DNA of 38,387 nt from Burkholderiales bacterium (GTDB lineage Bacteria > Pseudomonadota > Gammaproteobacteria > Burkholderiales > Casimicrobiaceae), in NCBI GenBank assembly GCA_025927765.1, contig JAICKU010000035.1:1-38387 (forward strand), in the 5' to 3' direction. A program made the translations under genes and the position numbers. The notes beneath the pieces were generated by a model. It saw nothing but the letters and a program-made list of their open reading frames with translations, ran no database searches and was not told the DNA's origin. This document shows positions 15,481 to 38,387 of the stretch, one piece after another (the stretch's first letter is position 1; the number at the start of each line of letters is the position of its first letter).

Positions 15481-15581
15481 AAGTAGGGTCAGGCTCCATT
15501 TTTCGACCCACTTCGGGGTCAGTCGGCCACGCCTCCGACTTGTCGCTCTGACCCCGATGTGGCTCGAGTCTGACCCTACTT
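15481..15581. repeat. REP-like nested palindrome at the 3' end of sauT
   Basis: Outer arms AAGTAGGGTCAG (15481-15492) and CTGACCCTACTT (15570-15581) are perfectly complementary. Inside are TCGGGGTCAG (15513-15522) with CTGACCCCGA (15548-15557), and a small AGTCGG/CCGACT hairpin at the centre. The sauT stop codon TAG lies in the outer arm. The TCGGGGTCAG core is shared with the palindrome in sauS. This motif style is typical of REP elements moved by RAYT transposases; no transposase is in the window. Confidence 0.65.
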
Positions 15582-17123
15582 TTCGTCGACGAGCTTCAGC
15601 CGCTGCACCTTGCCCGACGCGCCCTTGGGCAACGCGTCGACGAAGCGCAGGTAGCGCGGTGACTTGTAGCGCCCGAGCGTGGCGTGGCAATGCGTGCGCA
15701 GTTCGTTCTCGGCGACGCTCATGCCGGGCTTCACGACCACGCACGCGAGAATCTCCTGCCCGTACATGTCGTCGGGCACGCCGACGGCGGCCGCTTCCAG
15801 CACGGCCGGATGCGCGAGCAACGCCTCGTCGATCTCGCGCGGCGCAATGTTCTCGCCGCCCTTGATGATCAGTTCCTTGAGCCGGCCGGTGATGAAGAAG
15901 CATCCGTCGGCGTCACGGTGCCCGATATCGCCGGTGGCGAGCCATCCACCCGGACGGATCGCTGCGGCCGTCGCCTCGGGCTGCTTGAAATAGCCGAGCA
16001 TCACATTCGAGCCGCGCAACTCGATCTCGCCCTGCACGCCATCGGCGACCGGCCGGCCACCGCGATCGACGACGCGCGCTTCGACGCCGAGCGGATGTCC
16101 CGGCGAGCCATACTTGCGCTCCGATCGCTCGAGGGGATTGCTGAACGCGACCGACGAGCATTCGGTGAGGCCCATCGCCTCGATCACCGAAAAGCCGAAA
16201 CGCGCTTCGAACGCGCGATGCTGTTCGGGCGGCAGCGGCGCCGACGCCGAACGGCCGAAGCGAATCGCGCGCGCCGCCGCCGCCTGTTCCGGCGTGAGGT
16301 CGGGACCGTTCAGCAGGTACGCGATGATCGTCGGCACCATGTTGAGCCACGTGGGACGATACCGTTCGACGAGCGGCCACCATTGCGACACGCTGAAGCG
16401 ATGCGGCATCACGATGCTGCCGCCCGACACGAGCGGCGACACCGTCGCGATGCACTGTCCATTGATGTGGTAGAGCGGCAGCGACGACAGCACGCGATCG
16501 TCGGGCCCGAGCGCGAGCGATGCGACAACCGCACGCGCACCGGCGAGCATGTTGGCGTGCGATAGCAGCACGCCCTTTGGCATGCCCGTGGTGCCCGACG
16601 TGTACATGAGCATCGCGCGGTCGTGCGGAGCCGGCATGGGCCCCTCGCCTCCTACCTCTCCCCGCACCACGGGAAGAGGGAGCCGCTCGGTCCGCAAATC
16701 GAGCCCGTCCACGCCGACGACGCACACGTCGAACGCCACGCCCGCCTTCTCGCGCATCGCAACCACGCGCGCCTCGTGCTCCTTCGACGTGAACACGATG
16801 CGCGTCTCGGAATGCGCGAGCGTGTACGCGAGCTGCGCATCCTGCGCGTTGAGATTGATCGGCGACACCACGTAACCGCCGTACATCGCCCCGAGGAAGA
16901 TCGTCGCGGCGCTGGCACCGTTCTCCAGCATGAACGACACCGTTGCGCCGGGTGGAATGCCCCGTAGGGCGAGCGACGCCGCGAAGTTACGGCACGCCTT
17001 CGCGAGCGCGGCGTAATCGAGGCGCAGATCCGGCTCGGGCGCGAACAGGAAGGGCGCGTGGGGACGCGCCGTCGCGTGCGCGTCGATCAGCGCGCGAAAC
17101 GTGCCGGGAACAGAGTCAGACAC
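15576..17123 (-). CDS. sauT: AMP-forming acyl-CoA ligase, probable sulfoacetate--CoA ligase
   Basis: A 515-residue ANL-superfamily adenylating enzyme. The P-loop MLMYTSGTTGMPKGVLLSH is at about residues 173-191, MGLTECSS is the A5 motif, GWLATGDIGHRDADGCFFITGR the A7/A8 hinge, KELIIKGGENIAPREIDEAL follows, and the catalytic C-terminal lysine is in PKGASGKVQRLKL. It would form sulfoacetyl-CoA, AMP and PPi from sulfoacetate, ATP and CoA. The function is inferred from context: the GTG start overlaps the acylating sulfoacetaldehyde dehydrogenase stop by 8 bp, and xsc is just upstream, the SauS-SauT pairing known from Cupriavidus sulfoacetate degradation. No SauU-type transporter is present. A short-chain fatty acid or other carboxylate is the alternative substrate. 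Confidence 0.75.
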   Translation of the reverse strand: MSDSVPGTFRALIDAHATARPHAPFLFAPEPDLRLDYAALAKACRNFAASLALRGIPPGATVSFMLENGASAATIFLGAMYGGYVVSPINLNAQDAQLAYTLAHSETRIVFTSKEHEARVVAMREKAGVAFDVCVVGVDGLDLRTERLPLPVVRGEVGGEGPMPAPHDRAMLMYTSGTTGMPKGVLLSHANMLAGARAVVASLALGPDDRVLSSLPLYHINGQCIATVSPLVSGGSIVMPHRFSVSQWWPLVERYRPTWLNMVPTIIAYLLNGPDLTPEQAAAARAIRFGRSASAPLPPEQHRAFEARFGFSVIEAMGLTECSSVAFSNPLERSERKYGSPGHPLGVEARVVDRGGRPVADGVQGEIELRGSNVMLGYFKQPEATAAAIRPGGWLATGDIGHRDADGCFFITGRLKELIIKGGENIAPREIDEALLAHPAVLEAAAVGVPDDMYGQEILACVVVKPGMSVAENELRTHCHATLGRYKSPRYLRFVDALPKGASGKVQRLKLVDEK

Positions 17124-18603
17124 CGTGCCGGGCGCGGTAGGCGCCGAACAGCTCCTCGTCGGTGGGCTCGTGCACGCGGGCAGGCGCGAGCGGACGAACG
17201 ACGCGTGTGATGTTCAGGAAATGACGGTAATTGAGGTTGTCGGCGATGCTGTTGCCGCCCCAGGTGCCGCATCCCATCGACAGCGAGAACGGCAGCGCGT
17301 TGTCGAAGCTGCCGCCGGTGGCGAAGCAATGCGCCTGGTTGACGATCACGCGGCATACCGGCAGCGTCAATCCCAGTTCGCGTGCGCGCTCGAAACGCGA
17401 CGAGTGGAGCCCAAGCGAATGCCCCGCGCCCTGGTAGCGCAGGATCTCGTTGGCGCGTTGGACCGCAGCGTCGAAATCGGGTGCGCGGTAGAACGCGAGC
17501 ACCGGCGAAAGCTTCTCGCCCGAAAACGGGTGCGCGGACCCCACGCCCGTTTCCGCGACGATCAGGAAGCGCGCATCGCGCATTTCGGCCCTCGACAGCC
17601 CGGCGAGACGCGCGATCGCCTTCGCGTCCTGCGCGACGACGGCACTCGCAAGCTTGCCATTGGCGAACATGGCGCGCTCGAGCGCCGCCTTCTCCTCCGT
17701 ATCCAGCAGCACGCCGCCTTCGCGGGCGAGCGCTGCGAGCAAGGCCGGCGCGATCGCGTCGACCGCGACGACGCTGTTCTCCGACGAGCAGCTCGTGGCG
17801 TTGTCGAACGTCTTCGAGCGCGCGATCTTCGCCGCCGCGTCGCTCGCGTCGGCCGTTTCGTCGACGATGACGACGACGTTGCCCACGCCCACGCCGATCG
17901 CCGGCGTGCCGCTTTCGTACGCGCCGCGGACGTTGCGCGCCGAACCCGTCGCGACGACGAGGTCGGCCTGCCGCATCAGCTCGAACGTCTGCTCGCGCGT
18001 GACCGGCGTCGGCAGCTGCTGCACGAGATCGCGCGGCGCGCCGATGCGATCGAGCTCGGCATGCACGAATTCGATGAGCCGCGTCATCGTCGACTGTCCC
18101 TTCGGCGAGGGCGCGAGGATGATCGCGTCGCGGCACTTCAGCGCGTTGATGATGTTGTTCGCCGGCGTCGCCGCCGGATTCGTCGATGGCGTGATCGCCG
18201 CCACGACCCCGACCGGCCGCGCGATCTCGATCAGGCCGCGCTCCGCGTCTTCGGAGATCACGCCGACCGACTTCGCAGACTGCAGGTCGCGCAGCAGTCC
18301 CATCGTCTTGCGACGGTTCTTCGCGATCTTGTCGGCGACGTTGCCAAGCCCGGTGTCGTGCACCGCGAGCTCGGCGAGCTCGCGGTTACGTGCCGGCTCG
18401 ACGAGCGCCCAGCCAGCGGCCACCGCCGCCTCGTCCGCCTGCGACTGCGTCCAGCCATCGGCGACCGCCTGCGCGGCGCGGGCGCGCGCGATCAACGCAG
18501 AAATCGGGGTCAGAGATACATTTCCCACGCTTCCCGCGCCTTCCGGCGGTGCACGGTCGGGGAAATGTATCTCTGACCCCGATTTCTGCGCGGACGCCGA
18601 CAT
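17116..18603 (-). CDS. sauS: CoA-acylating sulfoacetaldehyde dehydrogenase with inserted palindrome
   Basis: A 495-residue aldehyde dehydrogenase of the acylating (AdhE/EutE-like) class, interconverting sulfoacetyl-CoA and sulfoacetaldehyde with NAD(P). The catalytic Cys is C272 in FDNATSCSSENS, and the substrate/cofactor blocks GVVAAITPSTNPAATPANN (residues 132-150) and SMGCGTWGGNS support the class. Non-acylating ALDHs have a different active-site context. The ATG at 18603 is 5 bp after the xsc stop, with AGG in between. Residues 7-35 are encoded by a perfect 31-bp inverted repeat (18496-18590) and have no family counterpart; the conserved protein begins at about ALIARARAAQ. A longer reading through the complement of xsc is not real. 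Confidence 0.85.
   Translation of the reverse strand: MSASAQKSGSEIHFPDRAPPEGAGSVGNVSLTPISALIARARAAQAVADGWTQSQADEAAVAAGWALVEPARNRELAELAVHDTGLGNVADKIAKNRRKTMGLLRDLQSAKSVGVISEDAERGLIEIARPVGVVAAITPSTNPAATPANNIINALKCRDAIILAPSPKGQSTMTRLIEFVHAELDRIGAPRDLVQQLPTPVTREQTFELMRQADLVVATGSARNVRGAYESGTPAIGVGVGNVVVIVDETADASDAAAKIARSKTFDNATSCSSENSVVAVDAIAPALLAALAREGGVLLDTEEKAALERAMFANGKLASAVVAQDAKAIARLAGLSRAEMRDARFLIVAETGVGSAHPFSGEKLSPVLAFYRAPDFDAAVQRANEILRYQGAGHSLGLHSSRFERARELGLTLPVCRVIVNQAHCFATGGSFDNALPFSLSMGCGTWGGNSIADNLNYRHFLNITRVVRPLAPARVHEPTDEELFGAYRARHGV
18496..18590. repeat. Perfect 31-bp inverted repeat inserted in frame in sauS
   Basis: Arms 18496-18526 and 18560-18590 are exact reverse complements with a 33-bp spacer. 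The arm contains ATCGGGGTCAGAGATACA, the same TCGGGGTCAG core as the repeat after sauT. In the sauS message it would fold into a very stable hairpin about 10 nt into the coding region. The reading frame stays open through it. Confidence 0.8.
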
Positions 18604-18608: not shown

Positions 18609-20405
18609 CTACTTCGCCGCGGTGGCCTTGTACTTGCCGAGGTGACGTACGGGGAGCGACAGCGCATCGCGGCGGAACGGGTCGCCCAGCTCGCGCGTGA
18701 CCATCATCTCGAGCACGGTCGTCTTGCCGTCCTTCTGCGCGGCGGCGGCTTCCCGCAACGCGGGGCCGACCTCCGACACGTTCTCGATACGCACGCCCTC
18801 GGCGCCCATCGCCTTCGCAACCGCGGCCCACGACGGCTGCTTGTCGAGGTTCACGCCCACGAAGCGGTTGCCGTAGAAGTCGACGTGATTCTTCTTCTCG
18901 GCGCCCCACTGCCCGTTGTTGAACACGACGGCCGTGACCGGGATGTTCTCGCGCACGCAGGTTTGCAGCTCGCCGAAGCTCATGCCCCACGCGCCGTCGC
19001 CGACGTACGCGATGGCGGGACGATCCGGCGCCGCGACTTTCGCGCCGATGATCGTCGGGAACGCATAGCCGCAGTTGCCGAAGCTCATCGCCGCGAACAT
19101 CGAGCGCGGCCGGTCGAAGCGCAGGTAGCTGTTCGACACCGAGCAGATGTTGCCGATGTCCGTCGACACCATCGCACCCTCCGGCATGGCGCGCTCGAGC
19201 TCGCGCAGCATCTGCCGCGGATGCATGTGCGGCGATCCCGCGCTGACCTCGACCGACCAGTTGTCCTTCTCGTGCGTCCAGCCGTCGAGCTCGCGTTCCC
19301 ATGCGCCCTTCTCGTCGCGCATCGTCGCGAGGCGCGCGTCGCGGTTCGCGCTCGACGCAAGCTGCCGGCCTTTGAGCCGACCGATCAACGCACGTGCGGC
19401 TGCGCCTGCATCGCCGCAGATGCCCACGGAAATCTGCTTCACCAGGCCGAGCATCTTCGCATCGGCGTCGACCTGGATGATCTTCGCGTTCTTCGGCCAG
19501 TAGTCGAGGCCGTGCTGCGGCAGCGTGCCGAACGGCCCGAGGCGCGTGCCGAGCGCCAGCACGACGTCGGCCTTGCCGATCAGCTTCATCGCGGCCTTCG
19601 AGCCCTGGTAGCCGAGCGGGCCGCACCACAGCGGATTGCTTGCAGGGAACGCGTCGTTGTGCAGGTAGCTCGTGCACACGGGCATCTGCAGCAATTCGGC
19701 GAGCGCCACCGCGTCGGCTTCGGCACCGCCCATGACGATGCCGCCGCCGGCGAGCATCACCGGGAACTTCGCCTGCGCAAGGAGCTCGCCCGCTTCGTCG
19801 AGGCTCTTCTCGCCGCCGGCGCCGCGCTCGATCGACAGCGGCTGCGGGATCTCAGTGTCGATGTCGCCGTAGAAGTAGTCGCGCGGAATGTTGACCTGCG
19901 TCGGCCCCATCTCGAGCATCGCGCGGTCGAACGCGCGGCTTGTCAGCTCGGCCATGCGCGCCTTGTTGTTCACGTGCACCTGGTACTTGGTGATCTTCGA
20001 GAAGATCGGCATCTGCTCGGTCTCCTGGAAGCCGCCGAGGCCGAGCGTCATCGATCCGGTTTCCGGCGTGATCATGACCACGGGCGAATGCGCCCAGTAG
20101 GCCGCGGCGATCGACGTCACGAAGTTCGTGATGCCGGGACCGTTCTGCGCGATGCACACCCCGGGATTCCCCGACACGCGCGCATATCCGTCGGCCATGT
20201 GTCCTGCACCCTGCTCGTGGGCGACCGAGATGAAGCGGATGCCGGCGAGCGGAAACAGGTCGAGCGCATCCATGTACGCGGAGCCGACGATGCCGAACAC
20301 GTCCTTCACGCCGTGCGCGACGAGCGTTTCGACGAACGCTTCGGACGGCGTCATCTTCTGGCGGCCCTGGACGGCCAGGTTGCGGGTTTCGGTCATCGTA
20401 TTCAT
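18609..20405 (-). CDS. xsc: Sulfoacetaldehyde acetyltransferase
   Basis: A 598-residue thiamine-diphosphate enzyme that converts sulfoacetaldehyde and phosphate to acetyl phosphate and sulfite, the C-S bond-breaking step of taurine dissimilation. Family blocks are MTPSEAFVETLVAHGVKDVFGIVGSAYMDALD, HEQGAGHMADGYARVSG (with the ThDP-activating Glu), AYWAHSPVVMITPETGS and GPTQVNIPRDYFYGD. The cofactor site GDGAWGMSFGELQTC...VVFNN lies at about residues 470-500. The length matches the family. MTETRN nine bases downstream is an alternative start. A TauR-type operator lies about 65 bp upstream and sauS follows 5 bp after the stop. The product acetyl phosphate needs a phosphotransacetylase, which is not in the window. 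Confidence 0.95.
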   Translation of the reverse strand: MNTMTETRNLAVQGRQKMTPSEAFVETLVAHGVKDVFGIVGSAYMDALDLFPLAGIRFISVAHEQGAGHMADGYARVSGNPGVCIAQNGPGITNFVTSIAAAYWAHSPVVMITPETGSMTLGLGGFQETEQMPIFSKITKYQVHVNNKARMAELTSRAFDRAMLEMGPTQVNIPRDYFYGDIDTEIPQPLSIERGAGGEKSLDEAGELLAQAKFPVMLAGGGIVMGGAEADAVALAELLQMPVCTSYLHNDAFPASNPLWCGPLGYQGSKAAMKLIGKADVVLALGTRLGPFGTLPQHGLDYWPKNAKIIQVDADAKMLGLVKQISVGICGDAGAAARALIGRLKGRQLASSANRDARLATMRDEKGAWERELDGWTHEKDNWSVEVSAGSPHMHPRQMLRELERAMPEGAMVSTDIGNICSVSNSYLRFDRPRSMFAAMSFGNCGYAFPTIIGAKVAAPDRPAIAYVGDGAWGMSFGELQTCVRENIPVTAVVFNNGQWGAEKKNHVDFYGNRFVGVNLDKQPSWAAVAKAMGAEGVRIENVSEVGPALREAAAAQKDGKTTVLEMMVTRELGDPFRRDALSLPVRHLGKYKATAAK

Positions 20406-20510: not shown

Positions 20511-21626
20511 CTAACCGGTCAGCGCCGAGGGCGCGGTATACGGGTAGCCTTGCGCCATTGCGACCGGCTCGCACGTAACTTTGCCATACGCGACGTTGAG
20601 GCCGTTGCGAAGGCCCGCATCTTCGGCGAGCGCGCGCTTCCAGCCCTTGTCGGCGAGCGCGAGCACAAAGGGGAGCGTCGCGTTGTTGAGCGCGTACGTC
20701 GACGTGCGCGGCACGCCGCCGGGCATGTTCGCCACGCAGTAGTGGACGACGCCATCGACGACGTACGTCGGCGCCTCGTGCGTCGTCGGATGCGACGTCT
20801 CGAAGCATCCGCCCTGGTCGATCGCCACGTCGACGACGACCGATCCCGGTTGCATTTTCGCGATCATCGCGCGCGTCACCACCCGCGGCGCCTGCGCGCC
20901 CGCGACCAGCACCGCGCCGATCACCACGTCGGCCGCCGCGACGTGGCGCTCGATCGCCTCCGCCGTCGCGAAGAGCGTCGTGAGCTGCGGTCCGAACTGA
21001 GCCCACAGCCGCGTCAACGCAGCGACACTGCGATCGAGCACGGCGACGCGTGCGCCCATGCCGAGCGCGATCTCGATCGCGTGCGTGCCCACCACGCCAC
21101 CGCCGATCACGGCCACCGACGCGGGCGCCACACCGGGCACGCCGCCGATCAGCACGCCCTTGCCGCCCTGCGGCTCTTCGAGATAGTGCGCAGCAGCCTG
21201 CACGGCGAGGCGTCCCGCGACCTCGGACATCGGCGAGAGCAGCGGCAGCGTTCCCGACGGCGACGTCACCGTTTCGTACGCGATGCACACGGCATTGCTC
21301 GCGACGAGATCGCGCGTCTGCGCAGGATCGGGCGCGAGGTGCAGGTACGTGAACAGCACCTGCCCGGGCCGCAGCATCGCGCGCTCGGCCGGTTGCGGCT
21401 CCTTGACCTTGACGATCATGTCGCACGCGGCATAGATCTCCGCCGCGTCGTTCGCGATCGCCGCGCCTTCGCGCGCGTACGCATCGTCGCTGACGCCGAT
21501 GCCCTGTCCCGCGTCGTGCTCGACGACGACGTCGTGGCCGTGGTGCACGAGCTCGCGCACCGATGCAGGCGTCAGCCCCACGCGGTTCTCGCGGACCTTC
21601 ACTTCCTTCGGCACGCCGACGCGCAT
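20511..21626 (-). CDS. ald: Alanine dehydrogenase
   Basis: A 371-residue NAD-dependent enzyme that deaminates L-alanine to pyruvate and ammonium. Pyruvate-binding residues are in VGVPKEVKVRENRVGLTP, catalytic Lys75 is in VKVKEPQP and His96 in FTYLHLAPD. The Rossmann motif is VAVIGGGVVGTHAIEIALGMGA, with Asp in VVDVAIDQGGCFETS, and MPGGVPRTSTYALNNATLPF closes the family set. In this cluster it regenerates the pyruvate that Tpa needs and frees the taurine nitrogen. It is co-directional with tauR and xsc and has its own TauR-type operator about 60 bp upstream, inside the 3' end of tauR. Confidence 0.95.
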   Translation of the reverse strand: MRVGVPKEVKVRENRVGLTPASVRELVHHGHDVVVEHDAGQGIGVSDDAYAREGAAIANDAAEIYAACDMIVKVKEPQPAERAMLRPGQVLFTYLHLAPDPAQTRDLVASNAVCIAYETVTSPSGTLPLLSPMSEVAGRLAVQAAAHYLEEPQGGKGVLIGGVPGVAPASVAVIGGGVVGTHAIEIALGMGARVAVLDRSVAALTRLWAQFGPQLTTLFATAEAIERHVAAADVVIGAVLVAGAQAPRVVTRAMIAKMQPGSVVVDVAIDQGGCFETSHPTTHEAPTYVVDGVVHYCVANMPGGVPRTSTYALNNATLPFVLALADKGWKRALAEDAGLRNGLNVAYGKVTCEPVAMAQGYPYTAPSALTG

Positions 21627-21659: not shown

Positions 21660-23180
21660 TTACGCGCCGCGGGGCGACGAAGGTAGGGCCAGTGCGGACT
21701 CGGCGCTGGTGTCAGCGCGCGCAGCGGCGAGCGCGGCGATGCCGGGCTCGATGCGCGCCGCGTCGATCGAGGCGAAGCCCAGACGCGCATGATTCACGGA
21801 CACGCCGGCGCCGGCGCGCTCGGCGAAGAACACGTCGCCGGGCTCGATCAGCACGCCGCGTTTCGCGGCGGCAATGGCGAGTGCGCGCGTGTCGACGTCG
21901 TCGGGGAACTGCAGCCAGAACGACGACGCGCCGGGCACGGTGCGAAAGCGCACGTCGGGCAGGTGCGCTGCGAGTGCCAGCGCCATCCGCTGTGCGCGCT
22001 CGGCGTATGCCTGGCGCAGCCGGCGCAGCAGCGCGTCGTGGTGGCCCATCGCGAGGAACAGGCCGACCGAGCGCTGATTGTTCGCGGCGGGATGGCGCAG
22101 CATCAGGCGCCGCAGCGCACGCAGTTCGCGGATCAGGTCTCGGTGGCCGACGATGAAGCCGCTGCGGATGCCGGGCGCGAGCGTCTTCGACAGGCTGCTC
22201 ACGTAGACGACGCGGTCGTTGCGATCGAGGCTCGTCAGCGCCGGCTGCGCGCGTCCTTCCAGGCCGAGCTCGATCTCGTAGTCGTCCTCGATCAGCACAC
22301 GATCGTTGGCGCGCGCCCATTCGAGCAGCACTTCGCGCCGCGCCAGCGGCATCGTCACGTTCGTCGGGCACTGGTGCGACGGCGTCACGTACACGTAATC
22401 GCAGGTGTCGAGCGCCGCCGTGAGCGCGAGCCCGTGCTCGTCGAGCGGCAGCGACACCACGTTCGCCGTGCGCGACGCAAAGATGTTGCGCGCATCGGGA
22501 TACCCAGGATCCTCGATGCCGACGGTGGTCGAGGCATCGACGAGCAGCGTCGCGAGCAGGAACAGCGCGTGCTGCGCACCGACGGTGACGAGGATCTCGT
22601 CGGGCGTCGCGAACACGCCGCGCCTCACGAGGAGCCGCGTCTGGATCTGCTCGATCAGGAGCGCGTCGTCGCCGTCGATCAGGTCGCCCGCCCAGCCGCG
22701 CACCTCCGACACCGACGTCGCCTGCAGGCTGCACTCCCGCCAGCCGGGCATGGGCAGCAGCGCCGGGTCGAACTGCCCGTAGATGAACGGATACGGGTAG
22801 CGCTGCCAATCGCGCGGCTTGACGATGTTGCGCTGCGCCGAGACGGTGCTGCGAAGCCGCGACGTCCAATCGGTGCGCGTCGCGATCGCGTCCGCACGCG
22901 GCGCTGGGGGCAATGCCGCGCGCCCCGCGACGATCTCCGGATTCACATAGTGTCCGCTGCGGCTCCGGGTGACGAGGTAACCCTCGTTGACGAGCAGCTC
23001 GTAGGCGAGCGCAACGGTGTTGCGCGCGACGCCGAGCTGAGCGGCGAGCACGCGTGTCGACGGCAGCGCCACGCCGACGGGAATGTGCCCGTCGAGGATC
23101 GCCGCCACGAGCATTTCACGGATCTGCGCCTGCAGGCCGACCTTGCCGTGGAAGGTGAGGTGGATCAGTTGGTTCCACAT
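21660..23180 (-). CDS. tauR: MocR-type (GntR-HTH plus aminotransferase-fold) regulator, TauR-like
   Basis: A 506-residue transcription factor. An N-terminal GntR winged helix covers residues 1 to about 80 (LQAQIREMLVAAILDGHIPVG, LPSTRVLAAQLGVARNTVALAY, YLVTRSRSGHYV). A class I aminotransferase-like domain follows, with PLP lysine in SSLSKTLAPGIRSGF and PLP-binding IEDPGYPD, THQ-like SHQCPTNVTM and IEDDYEIEL. TauR regulators sense taurine through the PLP domain and activate tpa and xsc. It is divergent from tpa and precedes ald. Five similar direct repeats at nearby promoters are its probable operators. The effector could be taurine or its PLP aldimine. Confidence 0.9.
   Translation of the reverse strand: MWNQLIHLTFHGKVGLQAQIREMLVAAILDGHIPVGVALPSTRVLAAQLGVARNTVALAYELLVNEGYLVTRSRSGHYVNPEIVAGRAALPPAPRADAIATRTDWTSRLRSTVSAQRNIVKPRDWQRYPYPFIYGQFDPALLPMPGWRECSLQATSVSEVRGWAGDLIDGDDALLIEQIQTRLLVRRGVFATPDEILVTVGAQHALFLLATLLVDASTTVGIEDPGYPDARNIFASRTANVVSLPLDEHGLALTAALDTCDYVYVTPSHQCPTNVTMPLARREVLLEWARANDRVLIEDDYEIELGLEGRAQPALTSLDRNDRVVYVSSLSKTLAPGIRSGFIVGHRDLIRELRALRRLMLRHPAANNQRSVGLFLAMGHHDALLRRLRQAYAERAQRMALALAAHLPDVRFRTVPGASSFWLQFPDDVDTRALAIAAAKRGVLIEPGDVFFAERAGAGVSVNHARLGFASIDAARIEPGIAALAAARADTSAESALALPSSPRGA
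21683..21715 (-). promoter_or_regulatory. Predicted TauR operator of ald
   Basis: The second half CTGGCCCTAC (21692-21683) is identical to that of xsc. The first half is degenerate, CTGACACCAG (21715-21706), exactly 23 bp upstream. A -10-like TAATCT begins 30 bp downstream of the second repeat start. It lies within the last codons of tauR. Confidence 0.5.
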
Positions 23181-23406: not shown

Positions 23407-24747
23407 ATGGGCCACTCCGAATTCATTCTCCGCAACCAGCCGGCGCAAAAGCCGCTCTCTCTCGACGAACTCTGGATGCCGTTCACGCCGAATCGCGACT
23501 TCAAGTCCGATCCGCGGATCGTCGTACGCGCCGAGGGCCTGTACTACTACAACGACCGCGGCGACAAGATCATCGACGCCTCGTCGGGTCTCTTCTGCGT
23601 GGCCGCGGGCCATTGCCGCAAGGAGATCGCCGAGGCCGTGCACAAGCAGTTGCAGGAGCTCGACTTCGTCGCGCCGTTCCTGCGTGCGCAACCGAAGAGC
23701 TTCGAACTCGCGTCGCGCATCGCCGAACTCACCCCCGGCGATCTCAACCGCATCTTCTTCGTCAATTCGGGTTCGGAAGCGGTCGACACGGCGATGAAGG
23801 TCGCGCTCGCCTACCACCAGGCGCGCGGGCAGACGGGCCGCACGATGTTCGTTTCGCGCGAGCGCGCGTATCACGGCGTCAATTTCGGCGGCGTGGCGCT
23901 CTCGGGCATCGTCAACAACCGCCGCCGGTACGGCCCGGGCGTTGCCGGCGTCGTGCACATGCGGCACACGCAGCTGGATGACAGGTACACGCAGGGGCAG
24001 CCCGAGCGCGGTGCCGAGCTCGCCGACGACCTGCTGCGCTTCGTGAACCTGTACGGCGCCGAGAACATCGCCGCGTGCTTCGTCGAGCCGATCGCGGGCT
24101 CCACGGGCTGCCTCGTGCCGCCGAAGGGCTACCTCGAGCGGCTGCGCCAGATCTGCGACCAGCACGACATTCTGCTCGTGTTCGACGAAGTGATCACCGG
24201 CTTCGGCCGCACCGGGCAGCCGTTCGCCGCGCAAAGCTTCGGGGTCACCCCGGACATCATGACGATGGCGAAGGCGCTCACGAACGCGGCCCAGCCGATG
24301 GGCGCGGTGGCGGTATCCGAACGCGTGCACGACTCGATCATGTCGGCGGCGCAGGAAGGCGCGATCGAGTTCTTCCACGGCTACACGTACTCGGGGCACC
24401 CGGCCGCGTGCGCCGCGGGGCTCGCGACGCTCGACATCTACAGGGACGAGGGCCTGTTCGAGCGTGCGCGCGAGCTGGCACCGTACTTCCAGCGCGCGAT
24501 GTTCTCGCTGAAGGGCACGAAGAACGTGACGGACGTGCGCGGTTACGGACTCTTCGCGGCGTTCGACGTCGAATCGGACGGCGCGCCGGGACGCCGCGGC
24601 AACCTGCTGCAGAAGAAGCTCTTCGACAACGGCCTCAACTTGAAGAACACCGGCGATTCGGCGCTCGTCGCCCCGCCGTTCATCGCCGAGCGCAAGGACA
24701 TCGACGAGATTCACGACAAGCTCGAGCGCACGCTCGCAGCGCTCTGA
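23407..24747 (+). CDS. tpa: Taurine--pyruvate aminotransferase
   Basis: A 446-residue class III aminotransferase that converts taurine and pyruvate to sulfoacetaldehyde and alanine. PLP phosphate-binding NSGSEAVDTAMKVALAYH is near residue 117, the AYHGVNFGG block follows, LLVFDEVITGFGRTG holds the PLP-ring Asp, and the Schiff-base Lys is in MTMAKALTNAAQPMGAV at about residue 290. HGYTYSGHPAACAAGLATLDI is also conserved. Omega-amino acid:pyruvate aminotransferases are close relatives; adjacent tauR, ald, xsc and tauABC favour taurine. The start is fixed by an in-frame stop inside the repeat arm (23395-23397), and no ribosome site is visible before the ATG. Confidence 0.92.
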   Translation: MGHSEFILRNQPAQKPLSLDELWMPFTPNRDFKSDPRIVVRAEGLYYYNDRGDKIIDASSGLFCVAAGHCRKEIAEAVHKQLQELDFVAPFLRAQPKSFELASRIAELTPGDLNRIFFVNSGSEAVDTAMKVALAYHQARGQTGRTMFVSRERAYHGVNFGGVALSGIVNNRRRYGPGVAGVVHMRHTQLDDRYTQGQPERGAELADDLLRFVNLYGAENIAACFVEPIAGSTGCLVPPKGYLERLRQICDQHDILLVFDEVITGFGRTGQPFAAQSFGVTPDIMTMAKALTNAAQPMGAVAVSERVHDSIMSAAQEGAIEFFHGYTYSGHPAACAAGLATLDIYRDEGLFERARELAPYFQRAMFSLKGTKNVTDVRGYGLFAAFDVESDGAPGRRGNLLQKKLFDNGLNLKNTGDSALVAPPFIAERKDIDEIHDKLERTLAAL

Positions 24748-26257: not shown

Positions 26258-26293
26258 GGCGTAACCGGACCGGCGACTGCGTCGTGCCGACAG

Positions 26294-28998: not shown

Positions 28999-29890
28999 GA
29001 CACAGCCTCAGGCGAGCGGCGCCGCCGTCTCGCAAGCGGCTGCGACCCTCGTCCCGCACGGACGCTTCCTGCGCATGTTCGCGAGCCGCGCCGCGGCCGC
29101 CGGCCAGGTCTATGGGCTGCCGGGCCAGGGGCGCAGCACCACGATCAGCGTGATCACGACGCTCGCGCTGATCGGCCTGTGGTTCCTGATCACCAACATG
29201 GGCTGGATCAAGCCGCTGTTCCTGCCCTCGCCCCAGGCCGTATGGGACAAGTTCATGCTCGCCAACACGGAGGGCGTCGCAAACTCGACGCTGCTCGAGC
29301 ATACGGCGACCAGCCTGATGCGCGTGTTCGGCGCGTTCCTGCTGTCATGCGCGACCGCCATCCCGATCGGCATCCTGATGGGGTCGAACCGCATCGTCCG
29401 CGGCATCTTCGACCCGCCCGTCGAGTTCTACCGGCCGCTGCCGCCGCTCGCGTACCTGCCGCTCATGATCATCTGGTTCGGCATCGGCGAGCTGTCCAAG
29501 ATCCTGCTCATCTTCCTCGCGATCTTCGCGCCGATGGCCATCTCCGCGCGCGCCGGCGTCAAGTCGGTAGGCATCGAGCAGATCCACGCGGCGTACGCCA
29601 TGGGCGCCTCGAAGTTCCAGATCCTGTTCCACGTGATCCTGCCCGCGGCCGCGCCCGAGATCCTGACCGGCATGCGCATCGGCATCGGCTTCGGCTGGAC
29701 GACGCTCGTCGCCGCGGAAATGGTCGCAGCGACGCGCGGCCTCGGCTTCATGGTGCTGAATGCCGCGCAGTACCTGCAAAGCGACACCGTGATCATGGGC
29801 ATCATCGTGATCGGCCTGTTCGCGTTCGGCTTCGATCTCCTCATGCGCAAGATCGAGCGCTGGATCGTGCCGTGGAAGGGCCGCATCTAG
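28991..29890 (+). CDS. tauC: Taurine ABC transporter permease
   Basis: A 299-residue inner-membrane permease. An extended basic N-terminus of about 50 residues precedes the first span [16 protein letters not shown]. The BPD-type signature is in [67 protein letters not shown], with the EAA loop at about residue 200. It pairs with TauA and TauB. The N-terminal extension is somewhat longer than usual; a later start would leave an unusual gap from tauB, and the overlap supports the start chosen. Confidence 0.92.
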
Positions 29891-29962: not shown

Positions 29963-31798
29963 GTGTTGCGTCGTCATCGCTTCGTGCCGCCGGTCGCGCT
30001 GAAGCTTTTCCCGTTCCTCGCGTGGCGCGATCGCGTCGACCGCGTTACGCTGCGCGCGGACCTTCTTGCGGGGCTCGTCGGCGCCGTGATGGTGCTGCCG
30101 CAAGGCGTCGCGTACGCCACGCTCGCCGGCATGCCGCCCGAGTACGGCCTGTACGGCGCCATGCTGCCAGCGATCGTGGGCGCGCTGTGGGGATCGTCGT
30201 GGCACCTGATGTCGGGGCCCACGAACGCCACGTCGCTGATGGTGTTCGCGACCGTCAGCGTGCTCGCCGTACCGTTCTCGCCGCAGTACGTCGGCCTCGT
30301 GCTGACGCTCAACCTGATGGTGGGTCTCATCAAGTTCGGCCTCGGCGTGGCGCGGCTCGGCTCGCTCGTCAACTTCATCTCGACGTCGGTGGTGATCGGC
30401 TTCACCGCCGGCGCGGGACTCCTGATCATCGGCGCGCAGCTTCGCAACTTCTTCGGATTGCACATTCCGCAGCAGGCGAGCTTCATCGCCGGATTGCGCG
30501 ACTTCGCGACGCATCTCGGGCAAACCGACTTCGGCGTGCTCGCGGTCGGCGTGTTCACGCTCGTCGCGTCGATCATCGGACGAAGGGTGCTGCCGCGCGT
30601 GCCGTACATGCTGACGGGCATCGTCGCCGGCGCGCTGTTCGCGCTGGTGTTGTCGCTCGCCAGCGTGGCCGAGGTCGCGACGATCGGCGCGCTGCCTTCG
30701 GCGGTGCCGCCGTTGTCCCTGCCGGAGTTTTCCGTCCGCACGTGGCAGACGCTCGCCCCGATCGCGCTCGCGCTCACGGTGATCGGTCTTTCGGAAGCGA
30801 TCTCCAGCGCGCGTGCCGTCGCATTGAAGTCGCACCAGCGCATCGACGGCAACCAGGAGTTCATCGGCCAGGGGCTCGCGAACATCGCAGGCGCGTTCAC
30901 GTCGAGCTACCCGACGTCCGGCTCGTTCAACCGCACCGGCGCGAACTACGAGGCGGGCGCGCGCACGCCTTTGTCGTGCGTGTTCTCGGCCATGCTGCTG
31001 CTCGTGATCCTGCTGCTCGTGAAGCCGCTCGCCGGGTATCTGCCCGTCGCGTCGATGGCCGCGGTGCTGTTCATCGTCGCCATCGGGTTGATCGACGTCG
31101 CGGCGATGCGCCACGTGTGGAAGACGAGCCGCGGCGACGCGCTCGTGCTCGTGGTCACGCTGATCGCCACGCTCACCATTCGCCTGGAAGTCGCGATCCT
31201 CGTCGGCGTGCTCGTGTCGCTGCTCGTGTACCTGAACCGCGCGACGCATCCGCTCGTGCTGCGCGTGTCACCCGACCCTGCGCAGGAGCGACGGTTTCGC
31301 CGCGTCGGCACCGCCACGCCGCTGTGCCCGCAAGTCGACATGCTGCGCATCGACGGTGCGCTGTTCTTCGGGTCCGTCGAGCACATCCGTGACGAGATCG
31401 ACGCGTTGCGCGTCGCGGCGCCCACGGCGCGGCACGTGCTGTTGATCGGCACCGGCATCAACCTGATCGACACCGCGGGCGCCGATCTGCTCGCCAATCT
31501 CGCGAAGACTTTCCGCGCCGACGGCACCACGCTGACCCTGTGCAAGATGCGGCCGGAAGTGCTCGCGCTGCTCGAGCGCGGCGGTTACCTCGACGCGATC
31601 GGGCGTGCGAACGTGTTCACCACCAAGGACCAGGCGCTTGCGGCGATCTACCGCATGCTCGACGCGGCGCAGTGTGCGGCGTGCGACGCGCGCATCTTCA
31701 ACGAATGCCGCGACGCGCTGCCCGACGGCCGCGTGCGCGACCGCGCACGGCCGGAACCGACGCTCGTTCCGCCGAACACCGCCGGCGTGGGATCGTAG
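29963..31798 (+). CDS. SulP-family sulfate transporter with STAS domain
   Basis: A 611-residue inner-membrane anion transporter. Early signature: DLLAGLVGAVMVLPQGVAYATLAGMPPEYGLYGAMLPAIVGALWGSSWHLMSGPTNATSLM; later GLSEAISSARAVALKSHQRIDGNQEFIGQGLANIAGAFTSSYPTSGSFNRTGANYEAGARTPLS. About ten spans are followed by a C-terminal STAS domain at about residues 430-560 (LRIDGALFFGSVEHIRDEID, LIGTGINLIDTAGADLL) and a short Cys-containing tail. SulP proteins move sulfate or bicarbonate. Beside sulfonate and sulfite-oxidation genes, disposal or uptake of sulfate is likely; direction cannot be told. The start is a GTG at 29963 without a clear ribosome site, so the exact N-terminus is uncertain. Its stop abuts the stop of the convergent kinase gene. 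Confidence 0.88.
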   Translation: MLRRHRFVPPVALKLFPFLAWRDRVDRVTLRADLLAGLVGAVMVLPQGVAYATLAGMPPEYGLYGAMLPAIVGALWGSSWHLMSGPTNATSLMVFATVSVLAVPFSPQYVGLVLTLNLMVGLIKFGLGVARLGSLVNFISTSVVIGFTAGAGLLIIGAQLRNFFGLHIPQQASFIAGLRDFATHLGQTDFGVLAVGVFTLVASIIGRRVLPRVPYMLTGIVAGALFALVLSLASVAEVATIGALPSAVPPLSLPEFSVRTWQTLAPIALALTVIGLSEAISSARAVALKSHQRIDGNQEFIGQGLANIAGAFTSSYPTSGSFNRTGANYEAGARTPLSCVFSAMLLLVILLLVKPLAGYLPVASMAAVLFIVAIGLIDVAAMRHVWKTSRGDALVLVVTLIATLTIRLEVAILVGVLVSLLVYLNRATHPLVLRVSPDPAQERRFRRVGTATPLCPQVDMLRIDGALFFGSVEHIRDEIDALRVAAPTARHVLLIGTGINLIDTAGADLLANLAKTFRADGTTLTLCKMRPEVLALLERGGYLDAIGRANVFTTKDQALAAIYRMLDAAQCAACDARIFNECRDALPDGRVRDRARPEPTLVPPNTAGVGS

Positions 31799-34995: not shown

Positions 34996-35046
34996 ATGTC
35001 GGCTTATATCACTTTCGATTCGCGGGCGGTGGCCGCGACATGGTAG
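34996..35046 (+). CDS. Possible 16-residue leader peptide overlapping the sat start
   Basis: [16 protein letters not shown] is preceded by the strongest ribosome site in the gap, AGGAGGAAG, at optimal distance. Its stop TAG (35044-35046) lies just after the sat ATG (35040), so translating it would bring ribosomes to sat, which has no good site of its own. It may be a coupling leader or chance. Confidence 0.4.
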
Positions 35047-36257
35047 GTCTCGTTTCCCCGCACGGCGGGCGCCGCCTGCAGCCGCGTGCCCTGCACGGCC
35101 ACGCCCGCGATGAGGCGGCGAAGCGTGCGCAGTCGCTGCGCACGCTTCGCGTCACGTCGCGCGAAAAAGGCGACCTCGTGATGCTCGGCATCGGCGGCTT
35201 CACGCCGCTCGAAGGCTTCATGTCGCCGGCCGACTGGCAGGGCGTGTGCGACGAGATGCGCACGGGCGACGGCCTGTTCTGGCCGATTCCGATCACGCTG
35301 TCGACCGACGAGGAGACGGCACGCGCGATCACGCCGGGTGAAGACATCGCGCTGATCGATCCCGACACCGACGCGCCGCTCGCCATCATGACGGTGCGCG
35401 AGAAGTATCGAATCGACAAGGCGCACGAGTGTCAGGCGGTGTTCCGCACGACCGACCCCGCGCATCCGGGCGTGCGCATGGTCATGCAGCAGGGCGACGT
35501 CAATCTCGCGGGACCCGTGCACGTGCTCTCGGACGGCGGCTTCAGCGAACGCTACGGCGCGCTCTTCATGACGCCCGAACAAACGCGCAGCGAGTTCGAG
35601 CGCCTCGGCTGGTCGCGCGTCGCGGCGTTCCAGACACGAAACCCCATGCACCGCTCGCACGAGTACCTCGCGAAGATCGCCGTCGAGGTGTGCGACGGCG
35701 TGCTCGTGCACTCGCTGCTCGGCAACGTCAAACCGGGCGACATTCCCGCCGACGTGCGCACCCGCGCGATCGCGACGCTGATCGCGAACTACTTCCGCCC
35801 AGGCACCGTGCTGCAGGCAGGCTATCCGCTCGACATGCGCTACGCGGGACCGCGCGAAGCGCTGCTGCATGCGCTGTTCCGGCAGAACTACGGCTGCGCG
35901 TTCCTCGTCGTCGGCCGCGATCATGCCGGCGTGGGCAGCTACTACGGACCCTTCGACGCGCATCGGATCTTCGACGAGATCCCGGGCGATGCGCTCGCGA
36001 TCCGCCCGCTCAAGATCGACTGGACGTTCTGGTGCTACAGGTGCGCCGGCATGGCTTCCGCGCGAACGTGCCCGCACGACGATGCCGACCGGCTGCTCGT
36101 GTCGGGCACCAAGCTTCGCAAGTGGCTTTCGGAGGGCGACCCGGTGCCGGCGGAATTCAGCCGGCCCGAAGTGCTCGCGATCCTGCGCGAGTACTACGCG
36201 TCGCTCGATCCGAGCGAGAAGGTCGAGGTGAAGTTGTCCGGCGCGTCGGCGCGGTAG
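35040..36257 (+). CDS. sat: Sulfate adenylyltransferase (ATP sulfurylase), homo-oligomeric type
   Basis: A 405-residue enzyme that in the oxidative direction makes ATP and sulfate from APS and PPi. It begins [10 protein letters not shown] and has [18 protein letters not shown], the active-site [20 protein letters not shown] (QxRN and HxxH) at about residues 197-216, [16 protein letters not shown] at about 300, and a C-terminal [18 protein letters not shown] with four Cys/His candidates for metal binding, then [13 protein letters not shown]. There is no APS-kinase extension. This is the Sat type found with dissimilatory APS reductase, not the CysDN pair. An N-terminal extension reading antisense to the binding protein was rejected. 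Start at 35040 is coupled to a short leader ORF. Confidence 0.93.
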
Positions 36258-36273: not shown

Positions 36274-37197
36274 TCAACCGGCGACCCGCACGTCGGCGCC
36301 CTGCTTTGCCGCAAGCCGCTCCTTGGCGAAGCCGACGAACGCGTTCACCACCTTCGAGTGGATGCGCTCCTTCGGATATACGACGCAGAGCCGACGCGTG
36401 AGTCGCGGCGCCAGCGGCACGTGCACCAGTTCACCAAGACGCACTTCCTTCTCGGCGGTCACGCGCGACATGATGGCAAAGCCGATGCCCGTGGCCACGA
36501 GGCCCTTCAACGCTTCGGGGCTGCTCGCCTCCATCACGACCTGGAGCGCGTCCACCTTGAGCCCGCATTTCTGCAGGTAGTGGTCGATCACCTCGCGCGT
36601 GCCCGATCCTGATTCGCGGCTCACGTACGCGTGCTCGGTCAGCGCAGTCAGGTCGACGCTTGCGAGTGTGGCGAGCGGATGCGACGGCGCGCACACCACC
36701 TGCAGCTCGTCGTCGCAGCAGACATCGGTCACGAGCGTGGGCAGGTGCGAATCGCCTTCGATGAATCCGAGGTCCAGGCTGCGTTGCGCGACGCGGATCT
36801 GCACGGCCTCGGAGTTCGCGACGGAGAGCTGCGGCACGATGCCGGGGTGGCGTGCCTTGAATTCGCCGAGGATCTTCGGCAGCAGGAATTCGGCGATGGT
36901 CGTGCTGGCGCCGATCAGAAGCGGTCCGACCTCCTGGCCCGACAGTTCCTTGAGCCGCGCGGAAAGCTCCGAGGACAGCGACAGGATGCGCTCCGCATAT
37001 TCGAACGCGACCTCGCCCGCAGCGGTCAACGCGATGCGGCCGTTCGCACGGTCGAAGAGCCGCGTATCGAACTGCTCCTCGAGCTGGCGCACCTGGAACG
37101 TGACGGCTGGCTGCGTCATGCACAACGCGTCGGCAGCCTTGGTGAACGACCGGTGCTTGGCGACGGCGTGAAAGGCCTGGAGGCGGCGGTCCGCCAT
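36274..37197 (-). CDS. LysR-type transcriptional regulator
   Basis: A 307-residue regulator. The winged helix is at residues 1 to about 65 (RLQAFHAVAKHRSFTKAADALCMTQPAVTFQVRQLEEQFDTRLFDR), followed by the linker helix YAERILSLSSELSARLKEL and a two-lobed effector domain (GPLLIGASTTIAEFLLPKILGEF, SLDLGFIEGDSH, AYVSRESGSGTREVI). The start MADRRLQ was chosen as the usual LysR N-terminus; ATGs further upstream enter the promoter. It is divergent from aprM with a 167-bp gap and probably controls aprMBA. The domain resembles CbbR/CysB-like members that sense small metabolites, but the effector is unknown. It ends 16 bp from the convergent sat stop. Confidence 0.88.
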   Translation of the reverse strand: MADRRLQAFHAVAKHRSFTKAADALCMTQPAVTFQVRQLEEQFDTRLFDRANGRIALTAAGEVAFEYAERILSLSSELSARLKELSGQEVGPLLIGASTTIAEFLLPKILGEFKARHPGIVPQLSVANSEAVQIRVAQRSLDLGFIEGDSHLPTLVTDVCCDDELQVVCAPSHPLATLASVDLTALTEHAYVSRESGSGTREVIDHYLQKCGLKVDALQVVMEASSPEALKGLVATGIGFAIMSRVTAEKEVRLGELVHVPLAPRLTRRLCVVYPKERIHSKVVNAFVGFAKERLAAKQGADVRVAG

Positions 37198-37337: not shown

Positions 37338-37343
37338 TAGAAT
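37338..37343 (+). promoter_or_regulatory. Candidate -10 of the aprM promoter
   Basis: TAGAAT lies 21 bp before the aprM ATG but there is no matching -35, as for activator-dependent promoters. Upstream, TATG-GCCG-CATA (37292-37303) and wider ATCGC/GCGAT arms are possible LysR contact sites. AGGAGG (37351-37356) is the ribosome site. Confidence 0.3.
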
Positions 37344-37364
37344 AGGCGTCAGGAGGAAAATTTC

Positions 37365-38189
37365 ATGCCGAGCGTCAATCCGTTCGCCGTCGCGGGCGCG
37401 TCGCTGCCTGCGGGCTTCCTGCAATGGTTCCTGGTCGTGATGATCCTGGCCGTGGTGGTCGGGACGCTCTTCGACATCGTCCACAAGGGCAGCGCGAAGT
37501 ATTTCTTCGCGCACATGCGCAAGTCGAAGGACAAGGGCCGCGCGATCGGGGGCGGCGAGATGATGTCGATCGCCGTGCAGACCGCGGTCGTCGACGTGCT
37601 CGCGTCCGGCGAGTTCTGCAACCAGAAACGTCGGGTCGCACACCTGCTCGGCATGTACGGGTTCGTGCTCTACGTGGTGGCGACGGCGGTCATGGTGTTC
37701 GGTTACCCCACGGACGCCACGTCGGCGCCTGCGATCTGGCCGCTGCTGTGGTGGATCGGCGCAATCATGGTGCTGGTCGGTCTCTACTGGTTCTGGTTCT
37801 TCATCCGCGTGGACGTTGCCGCCGAGGGTCACACGCCCTTGCGCCTGGTGAAGGCGGACCTCTTCGTGCTGTCGCTGCTGGCGAGCGTGACGCTGGCGGT
37901 CCTCTGGGCCGCCATGGGCGGCGGCGTGGGCGTGCTGTTCTGGCTCTACATCATCGCGACCATCGTGCTCTTCTTCGGGGTGCCGTGGTCGAAATTCGCG
38001 CACATGTTCTTCAAGCCCGCGGCCGCCTTCGAGAAGCGCCTCTCGATGGCGAACGGCACCGCCGAGAACTTGCCGACACAGACGCGCGACGATCCCGAGC
38101 AACGCAAGCGGCACTCGATGGAGCTGTTGCGCGACGCGCCGATGGACATGGGACTCGGCATCAAGCGCGAGGCACCGCGCCACTACTAG
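37365..38189 (+). CDS. aprM: Membrane anchor subunit of APS reductase
   Basis: A 274-residue inner-membrane protein. It has five hydrophobic spans: FLQWFLVVMILAVVVGTLFDIVH, then about residues 88-110 (AHLLGMYGFVLYVVATAVMV), 125-150, 165-185 and 195-222. Hydrophilic loops carry MRKSKDKGRAIGGGEMMSIAVQTAVVDVLASGEFCNQKRR and a C-terminal cytoplasmic tail with charged residues. It matches AprM in length, topology and position immediately before aprB. AprM substitutes for QmoABC in some sulfur oxidisers and links the soluble AprAB to the quinone pool, taking two electrons as sulfite and AMP become APS. AGGAGG precedes the ATG. Confidence 0.88.
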   Translation: MPSVNPFAVAGASLPAGFLQWFLVVMILAVVVGTLFDIVHKGSAKYFFAHMRKSKDKGRAIGGGEMMSIAVQTAVVDVLASGEFCNQKRRVAHLLGMYGFVLYVVATAVMVFGYPTDATSAPAIWPLLWWIGAIMVLVGLYWFWFFIRVDVAAEGHTPLRLVKADLFVLSLLASVTLAVLWAAMGGGVGVLFWLYIIATIVLFFGVPWSKFAHMFFKPAAAFEKRLSMANGTAENLPTQTRDDPEQRKRHSMELLRDAPMDMGLGIKREAPRHY

Positions 38190-38225
38190 GCCACAAGCTC
38201 GAGAGAGCACAGCTCAAGGACCCCA

Positions 38226-38387
38226 ATGCCTACCTTCGTCTACATGACGAGGTGCGACGGATGCGGACACTGCGTCGACATCTGTCCCTCGGACATCATG
38301 CACATCGACCCGACGTATCGGCGGGCCTACAACATCGAGCCGAACATGTGCTGGGAGTGCTACTCCTGCGTGAAGGCTTGCCCGCAG
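38226..38387 (+). CDS. aprB: Adenylylsulfate reductase beta subunit (cut by window edge)
   Basis: The first 54 codons of AprB, the ferredoxin-like electron-transfer subunit. MPTFVYMTRCDGCGHCVDIC and then MCWECYSCVKACPQ carry the ligands of two [4Fe-4S] clusters (CxxCxxCxxxC and CxxCxxCxxxCP). The sequence type is that of sulfur-oxidising bacteria. It starts 36 bp after aprM with AAGGA upstream, so aprM-aprB form one operon; aprA should follow beyond the edge. This protein and AprA oxidise sulfite with AMP to APS. Confidence 0.96.
   Translation, partial: MPTFVYMTRCDGCGHCVDICPSDIMHIDPTYRRAYNIEPNMCWECYSCVKACPQ

Follow-up and report, generated by a model that had tools for sequence, protein, structure and literature searches.

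When a bacterium cleaves a C2 sulfonate, what becomes of the sulfite that is set free? Textbook schemes have it either exported or oxidized without formation of ATP. The question is raised by contig C16 of a Burkholderiales draft genome (4.01 Mb, 148 contigs, 95.6% complete, 2.1% contaminated), a stretch of 38,387 bases which we refer to, at its full length, as the window. It carries genes for taurine uptake and C2-sulfonate cleavage together with genes for ATP sulfurylase (Sat) and for parts of adenosine 5'-phosphosulfate (APS) reductase (Apr). We consider it probable that this locus is a dissimilatory C2-sulfonate island, the sulfite of which is disposed of by a cytoplasmic end piece made up of APS reductase and ATP sulfurylase. 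The observations behind this view are the gene order and content, the linkage of both halves in a few relatives, and searches of the genome for dsrA, sHdr, and SoeA that came back empty.

Sulfonate uptake and cleavage genes

Proteins were named using NCBIfam models with their curated cut-offs, Pfam domains, matches to PDB chains, and neighborhood context. A preceding sequence-only reading had listed taurine uptake, Tpa, Ald, Xsc, SauST, a SulP transporter, Sat, and AprMB at this locus, and each of these gene classes was found to be present. Families and order were as claimed. Two qualifications apply: aprA lies outside the window, and the taurine labels of Tpa and of the regulator TauR rest on context, because the models which these two proteins passed are AptA and PdxR.

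The sulfite-releasing step is encoded by xsc (18609..20405, minus strand), whose product, sulfoacetaldehyde acetyltransferase, scored 941 bits against TIGR03457 (cut-off, 676). Next in coordinate order is the alanine dehydrogenase gene ald (20511..21626, minus strand; TIGR00518, 487 bits; cut-off, 392). The Tpa-type omega-amino acid:pyruvate aminotransferase (23407..24747, plus strand) matched NF052567 AptA with 622 bits (cut-off, 500), and its best PDB chain was 4uhm (440 bits). Divergent from it is a MocR-type regulator gene (21660..23180, minus strand; NF052282 PdxR, 338 bits; cut-off, 320), a candidate TauR with homologues near Xsc in loci L151 (54% identity) and L152 (48%). Uptake is represented by the taurine-binding protein TauA (27052..28083, plus strand; TIGR01729, 420 bits; cut-off, 304), the ATPase TauB (28159..28998, plus strand; PRK11248, 333 bits), and the permease TauC (28991..29890, plus strand; PRK10160, 309 bits). 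The scores of TauB and TauC were slightly below the cut-offs of 357 and 342, respectively, with a taurine-transporter equivalog as the best match in both cases. Co-directional behind tauABC is the gene of a SulP anion transporter, a candidate sulfate exporter (29963..31798, plus strand; TIGR00815, 357 bits, below the cut-off of 380).

A second route from taurine to sulfoacetaldehyde may be encoded by an FAD oxidoreductase (24842..26257, minus strand; PF01266, 195 bits) and a small SnoaL-like protein (26294..26692, minus strand; PF12680, 89 bits). Neither reached the cut-off of an NCBIfam equivalog, and the FAD protein had no PDB chain match at 1e-10. The pair (24842-26692) was seen again with Xsc, a MocR-type gene, and TauABC in the taurine cluster of L151, where the FAD protein is 65% and the SnoaL-like protein 60% identical. 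It was also found near Xsc and a MocR-type gene in L152 (SnoaL-like protein, 70%), where the end of the stretch truncates the FAD gene and TauABC was not seen. The two proteins may correspond to TauY, the large subunit of taurine dehydrogenase, and TauX. TauXY is described as an alternative to Tpa in the part of PMC5320631 available to us. For the conversion of taurine to sulfoacetaldehyde as a whole, TauA was thus the component above its cut-off; the aminotransferase matched AptA and not a Tpa model, and TauXY were named by context.

Context also gave their names to a SauT-like, AMP-forming sulfoacetate:CoA ligase (15576..17123, minus strand; PF00501, 273 bits; PF13193, 77 bits) and a SauS-like, CoA-acylating sulfoacetaldehyde dehydrogenase (17116..18528, minus strand; PF00171, 66 bits), whose start codon was picked among candidates by likeness to its counterpart in locus L129. 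No NCBIfam equivalog was above cut-off for either (best for SauT, PRK06187, 392 bits; cut-off, 476), and families and order fit. Of 19 Xsc-bearing stretches (L129 and L135 to L152), 6 held homologues of both SauS (62 to 67% identity) and SauT (51 to 57%) near Xsc, and one more (L150) held SauS without SauT.

The ATP sulfurylase and APS reductase module

Beyond the SulP gene, sat (35040..36257, plus strand) encodes a protein with 504 bits to PRK04149 (cut-off, 387), 287 bits to PF01747, and 332 bits to PDB chain 4dnx, with which its QTRNPMH and GRDHAG stretches align. Next to it lies a LysR-type regulator gene (36274..37197, minus strand). The product was assigned to the YeiE/FinR-like group by its PDB matches (8sbf, 132 bits; CbbR-type 5y2v, 129 bits; YeiE 8sbh, 101 bits; 7erp, 92 bits), and its matches to NCBIfam LysR models were below cut-off (YeiE, 188 bits; cut-off, 480). 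YeiE binds sulfite according to the portion of PMC12880088 consulted, and the regulator of the window is a candidate sulfite sensor.

The window closes with aprM (37365..38189, plus strand) and aprB (38226..38387, plus strand). The contig ends 54 codons into aprB, and these include two 4Fe-4S stretches of the beta subunit. AprM, the membrane anchor of lineage-I APS reductase, matched TcuB (41 bits) and QmoC (34.7 bits) weakly and in part, at scores far short of the respective cut-offs, and owes its name to its place directly before aprBA, which its homologues share in relatives. It stands where other loci have qmo, and the partial likeness to QmoC and TcuB fits a membrane partner of the cytochrome b type. 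The electron acceptor of AprM-type enzymes is given as unknown in the section of PMC2211403 available.

A complete aprA was located on contig C57 of the same genome (positions 476-2386). It has no internal stop, and its product scored 1,083 bits against TIGR02061 and 654 bits against PDB 1jnr, with residues 11-617 aligned. C57 starts with aprB and overlaps the window end by 158 nt with 6 mismatches. Beyond this contig break, C57 would continue the window, its DNA stemming from an identical or closely related strain; alternatively, there may be a second apr locus, or another strain may have been co-binned. While aprM and aprB adjoin in the window and aprM-aprB-aprA are contiguous in relatives (e.g., L129 and L185), the same contiguity in this genome would run over the break.

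Other sulfite-oxidizing enzymes in the genome

The sequence-only reading had regarded Apr and Sat as the only sulfite-oxidizing genes visible. This proved correct for the cytoplasmic systems that we searched for. In the assembly, dsrA was not found. A SoeA ortholog was not found either, the best match to the query from locus L040 amounting to 87 bits over 250 of 970 residues. This query is itself context-named, being part of a three-gene set (970, 243, and 320 amino acids) beside sat and aprMBA. A molybdoenzyme set on C77 resembling SoeABC in size (930, 225, and 279 amino acids) was rejected; no equivalog was above cut-off, and it scored 73 bits compared to the 87 bits reached elsewhere.

For the sHdr cluster, a genome screen with PF02754 and tblastn with eight sHdr-region proteins of locus L186, aligned to the genome stretches around the PF02754 matches, yielded no HdrA or HdrB match. 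The eight PF02754 matches were on C76, C141, C130, C108, and C63. By sequence and order, that on C76 was LutABC-like, that on C141 was GlcF-like, and that on C130 adjoined a DUF3501-like protein; those on C108 and C63 fell in very long frames. The tblastn matches were likewise dismissed: the lipoate-binding protein matched a GcvH-like sequence, and the other match was a ferredoxin-type stretch (29%) in the GlcF-like gene.

The claim did not hold for other parts of the genome, where SoxC was detected twice and a SorA-like protein once. A sox cluster on C85 encodes SoxB (860 bits) and SoxC (628 bits), both above cut-off; the SoxXA-, SoxYZ-, and SoxD-like neighbors owe their names to gene order and sequence and not to a scan. 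Another SoxC, also above cut-off (579 bits), lies apart from this cluster with a cytochrome c (C63, 105303-105791). The SorA-like protein on C92 reached 202 bits to SorA, well below the cut-off of 600, and 274 bits to its best PDB chain, 6y0k; its gene adjoins that of a cytochrome c with two CxxCH motifs. Finally, on C99, a cytochrome-b-like protein is encoded next to a small protein which resembles MsrP but scored below cut-off. Xsc and Apr/Sat are cytoplasmic enzymes, whereas the SoxC and SorA-like proteins look periplasmic. Within what was searched, which did not include cysH, cysC, and persulfide dioxygenase, Apr/Sat was the sole cytoplasmic route for sulfite and Xsc the sole recognized cytoplasmic source.

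Linkage and co-occurrence in related bacteria

The connection between sulfonate and Apr/Sat genes was followed in the best 80 of 575 confirmed sat-bearing places from a genome scan, many of them short loci. The best Sat relatives were mostly betaproteobacterial or Burkholderiales metagenome-assembled genomes, whose fragmentation may lead to under-counting of physical linkage. Three loci stood out, L006 and L007 from among these 80 and L129 from among the Xsc-bearing stretches. L129, from a genome of another family of the order (G059), contains aprM-aprB-aprA, genes of a 116-residue and a SlyD-type protein, four other genes, and then a LysR gene, sat, xsc, a TctC-type receptor gene, sauS, and sauT, with xsc and sat being divergent neighbors 136 nt apart. 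In L007, from a congener, the contig begins inside sauT (79% identity to the window's), and the stop codon of this gene overlaps the ATG of sat, which is followed by LysR. In another congener (L006/L184), the neighbors of sat include yfcE, a sulfotransferase-like gene (labeled by eye), a homologue of the Tpa-type aminotransferase (80%), and a TauA-like gene (44%). Assuming uniform gene order, we roughly estimated that two single-copy genes would lie within 15 kb of each other in a 4.0-Mb genome about 0.75% of the time.

The module also has other partners. Among the best 80 sat loci, 15 had a SoeA homologue and 9 a LysR homologue. Window-like Sat was present in 15 of the 21 other genomes of the genus, and in 6 of these 15 soeABC is directly upstream of sat (L189, L193, L194, L195, L198, and L199), possibly placing two cytoplasmic sulfite-oxidizing systems side by side. 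One of the six, G436, has a partial Ald homologue at the contig edge. In G432 an sHdr cluster, named by sequence and order, is next to sat (L186, 2121-8876), and in G431 an sHdr-like start lies about 8 kb from it (L188, 19028-19303); in these two, the sat/apr module may have a role in sulfane-sulfur oxidation. Two genomes of one genus, G424 (L187) and G436 (L194), carry aprMBA of different AprA subfamilies, 63% and 69% identical to the AprA of our genome, which points to exchange of the apr locus.

Across 300 genomes of the order, aprA was found in 65, xsc above cut-off in 34, and both in 13. The AprA subfamily to which our genome belongs comprised 17 genomes, i.e., 16 scoring above 1,070 bits plus G090, where the gene is split over two contigs. 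Of these, 8 had xsc, with 1.9 expected (Fisher P, 1.4e-4), or 7 of 16 when our own genome was left out (P, 5.9e-4); both P values overstate independence, kinship being ignored, because the xsc label needs two changes on the AprA tree. Genomes with other AprA types had xsc in 5 of 48 cases (expected, 5.4). By family, xsc accompanied the subfamily in 8 of 10 genomes of f1, f6, f11, and f46 and in none of 7 of f25 and f38. In the 98 genomes of family f11, xsc was present in 22 (21 above cut-off), window-like Sat in 44, and both in 17, compared to 9.9 expected (P, 5.7e-4).

Proposed pathway and possible adenylate loop

We infer from these data the substrate range and flux of a pathway, the direction of Apr and Sat, the electron acceptor, the regulation, and the cargo of SulP. 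Taurine would be imported by TauABC and lose its amino group either through the Tpa-type aminotransferase, acting with Ald, or through the TauXY-like dehydrogenase. Sulfoacetate would be activated by SauT, and SauS would reduce the product. The two routes would meet at sulfoacetaldehyde, from which Xsc would form acetyl phosphate and sulfite. For the Apr and Sat families it is established that Apr converts sulfite and AMP to APS with release of two electrons and that Sat converts APS and pyrophosphate to ATP and sulfate. AprBA, anchored by AprM, would accordingly pass the two electrons toward the membrane, Sat would return ATP, and SulP may export the sulfate. The YeiE-like LysR protein, which would act as the sensor, probably turns on sat and aprMBA as sulfite rises. 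From family knowledge, the expected gain is ATP by substrate-level phosphorylation and electrons for the quinone pool. As for acetyl phosphate, neither Pta nor AckA was detected among the window proteins scanned, to which this search was confined.

It is conceivable, though we would not yet favor it, that SauT closes an adenylate/pyrophosphate loop with the end piece. SauT, AMP-forming by family, would spend ATP; its AMP would feed Apr, its pyrophosphate would feed Sat, and Sat would give the ATP back. The entry cost would then be refunded one for one, with one ATP per sulfoacetate. Such a loop would explain the overlapping codons of sauT and sat in a congener, as well as the grouping of sauST, xsc, sat, and apr in two families.

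Weighing the alternatives

Several findings weigh against a coupling of sulfonate cleavage to Apr/Sat. A Tpa, SauT, SauS, Xsc, or TauA homologue was found at our thresholds in only 2 of the best 80 sat loci (L006 and L007), and the congeners with window-like Sat had sulfonate genes beside it in 2 of 15 cases, soeABC in 6, and an sHdr cluster in 1. Only 1 of the 17 co-occurring f11 genomes (G059) has xsc and Sat on one contig. Of the eight genomes in which aprA and xsc co-occur within the AprA subfamily, G059 is also the only one with both on one contig, our own having aprMB with xsc; its aprA is joined to the window solely by inference over the contig break, where 6 of the 158 overlapping nt differ. 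In addition, within the order, aprA above cut-off was missing from 21 of 34 genomes with xsc, and the xsc label changed just twice on the AprA tree (quick method, 17 labeled rows). G038 and G198, from the family of our genome, possess xsc with sauS and sauT homologues (L149 and L148) and neither aprA above cut-off nor a window-like Sat; in these two, therefore, the sulfonate genes are independent of the module. Our genome encodes two SoxC-type proteins and the SorA-like protein. With regard to regulation, the TauR box CTGGACYTAA matched at chance level when up to 2 mismatches were allowed (11 sites; 12.6 expected), with one site upstream of tauA and none directly before sat or aprM. The shorter motif CTGGCTC (9 sites, 6.0 expected, one of them 470 nt before sat) gave no support for a shared TauR operator.

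Apr and Sat might instead serve the oxidation of inorganic sulfur such as thiosulfate or sulfane sulfur, with the sulfonate genes as mere neighbors. The sHdr and soeABC partners of the module in congeners agree with this, as do the sox cluster on C85 and the occurrence of a close AprA branch (85 to 88% identity) in Gallionella and Thioalkalivibrio. We nevertheless judge it unlikely for this genome, in which dsrA and sHdr were not found. Sox with SoxCD carries out oxidation to sulfate in the periplasm, and neighborhoods of sat with xsc or sauT are not expected under such an explanation (persulfide dioxygenase was not searched for). Somewhat less likely still is that sulfite from Xsc is mainly exported to the periplasm, where the SorA-like enzyme or SoxCD would oxidize it, leaving Apr/Sat as a minor or overflow path. 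The candidate enzymes are there, one with a cytochrome c and two above the SoxC cut-off; however, their genes are on contigs other than that of the sulfonate genes, and no TauE- or TauZ-type exporter, but SulP only, was recognized among the window proteins scanned. In Sinorhizobium, SorT is induced on taurine, yet the sorT mutant grows at a similar rate (PMC6527743, available text). That the genes form an organosulfur island by co-selection, without coordinated flux, appears very improbable to us. The sulfatases, formylglycine-generating enzyme, and SsuABC-like transporters of C57 would indeed yield sulfate and not sulfite, and no shared regulator site was found, but the divergent xsc/sat promoter region in L129 and the overlapping sauT and sat genes in L007 argue for a closer connection.

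We therefore retain disposal of sulfonate-derived sulfite by Apr/Sat as the preferred explanation for the window, supported by the recurrence of the linkage in L129, L007, and L006. The module is not dedicated to sulfonates in general. Because sat stands beside soeABC or sHdr in congeners and aprA is missing from 21 of 34 genomes with xsc, sat-LysR-aprMBA looks like a portable sulfite-oxidizing end piece joined to different sulfite sources.

Neighboring genes

Downstream of aprA, C57 encodes a protein of 116 amino acids, a protein which we take to be SlyD-like (no Pfam match), a phosphoesterase which is presumably YfcE-like (PF12850, 98 bits), and then a cluster of sulfatase, formylglycine-generating enzyme, and ABC transporter genes. 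Through this last part (L084, 5978-18934), with its two sulfatases, one formylglycine-generating enzyme, and two transporters resembling SsuABC, the island would also cover sulfate esters. The 116-residue protein (L084, 2383-2733, plus strand) and its homologues have no Pfam match. It was located 3' of aprA on the same strand, at a distance of 0 to 402 nt, in 50 of 58 stretches with an AprA of at least 60% identity, several of the 50 being the same place fetched twice. All 50 had an AprA of at least 84.8% identity. Of the eight stretches without it, seven had an AprA of 63 to 70%, and the eighth, L042, ends near its aprA. The predicted fold is NTF2-like (pLDDT, 82.6), with weak Foldseek matches and none at an E value of 0.001 or less. 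The protein, with the SlyD-like protein behind it, is a possible unnamed accessory of APS reductase.

Between the SulP and Sat genes, a NahK-like hybrid histidine kinase with dCache, HAMP, HisKA, and HATPase domains is encoded on the minus strand (31799-34398); its receiver-like end falls into a different reading frame, which suggests either a frameshift or an assembly error. Genes of succinate dehydrogenase/fumarate reductase-like flavoprotein, FeS, and cytochrome b subunits lie upstream of the sulfonate genes (10396-15394, minus strand), interleaved with those of split class I fumarase/tartrate dehydratase subunits. A legume-lectin-like protein with a PEP-CTERM sorting signal is encoded at 3682-4737 (plus strand).

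Comparison with known systems and implications

The principle that taurine-derived sulfite is channeled into Apr and Sat is already published for sponge symbionts and SAR11. According to the parts of PMC10356861 available, the sponge symbiont "Candidatus Taurinisymbion ianthellae" converts taurine to sulfate via tauABC-tpa-xsc and aprAB-sat with QmoAB-HdrBC, and sulfate release was measured. The same text calls the Apr route infrequent among taurine degraders and gives as further cases SAR11, a symbiont of Olavius, and two more sponge symbionts, so that the precedent mentioned in the sequence-only reading was borne out and is wider than stated there. In both the symbiont and our genome, cytoplasmic Apr and Sat would be supplied through tauABC, an aminotransferase of the Tpa type, ald, and xsc, and SulP is among the candidates for sulfate export. 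They differ in that Apr of the symbiont is coupled to QmoAB-HdrBC and sulfite dehydrogenases are absent from it, whereas our genome, from a Burkholderiales host and not a sponge symbiont, has AprM, a SauST-like branch, a SorA-like gene, and sox. In that portion of the article, the sulfonate and Apr/Sat genes of the symbiont are not described as linked, as they are in the window. SAR11, as cited there, also passes Xsc-derived sulfite to AprAB, but most members are without ATP sulfurylase, which in the window is present and linked.

Aerobic taurine degraders with TauR regulons share tauABC, xsc, a MocR-type regulator, and, as far as the context-based names hold, tauXY or tpa/ald with the window (PMC5320631). 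In the regulons described in the available part of this source, sulfite leaves via TauE or is oxidized and exported by TauZ, and some of those in Rhodobacterales include bisC/dmsC/hybA, which we read as SoeABC-like; the window has linked Apr/Sat genes instead. With lineage-I APS reductase loci of sulfur oxidizers it shares aprM directly before aprBA (PMC2211403). Unlike in the loci shown in the accessible text of that article, apr of the window adjoins sulfonate genes, and 116-residue and SlyD-like proteins follow aprA in its subfamily. In the literature, we came across no description of sat or apr next to xsc or sau genes, which is weak evidence, given that only open full texts were searched. 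Within these limits, the novelty lies in physical linkage of the genes in two families, in an APS reductase of the AprM type, in a host from the Burkholderiales, and in the connection of SauT with Sat. The arrangement, which the sequence-only reading had called unusual, is rare, just 2 of the best 80 sat loci having a sulfonate gene at the thresholds used.

Organosulfonates are a large pool of sulfur in soils and waters. If the linkage is functional, the sulfur atom itself would pay, with two electrons and one ATP per sulfonate. This would extend to Burkholderiales a pathway that is described mostly from symbionts in the available text of PMC10356861. An xsc or sauT gene beside sat would then be a genomic marker for such bacteria, and aprA in metagenomes need not signal the oxidation of inorganic sulfur.

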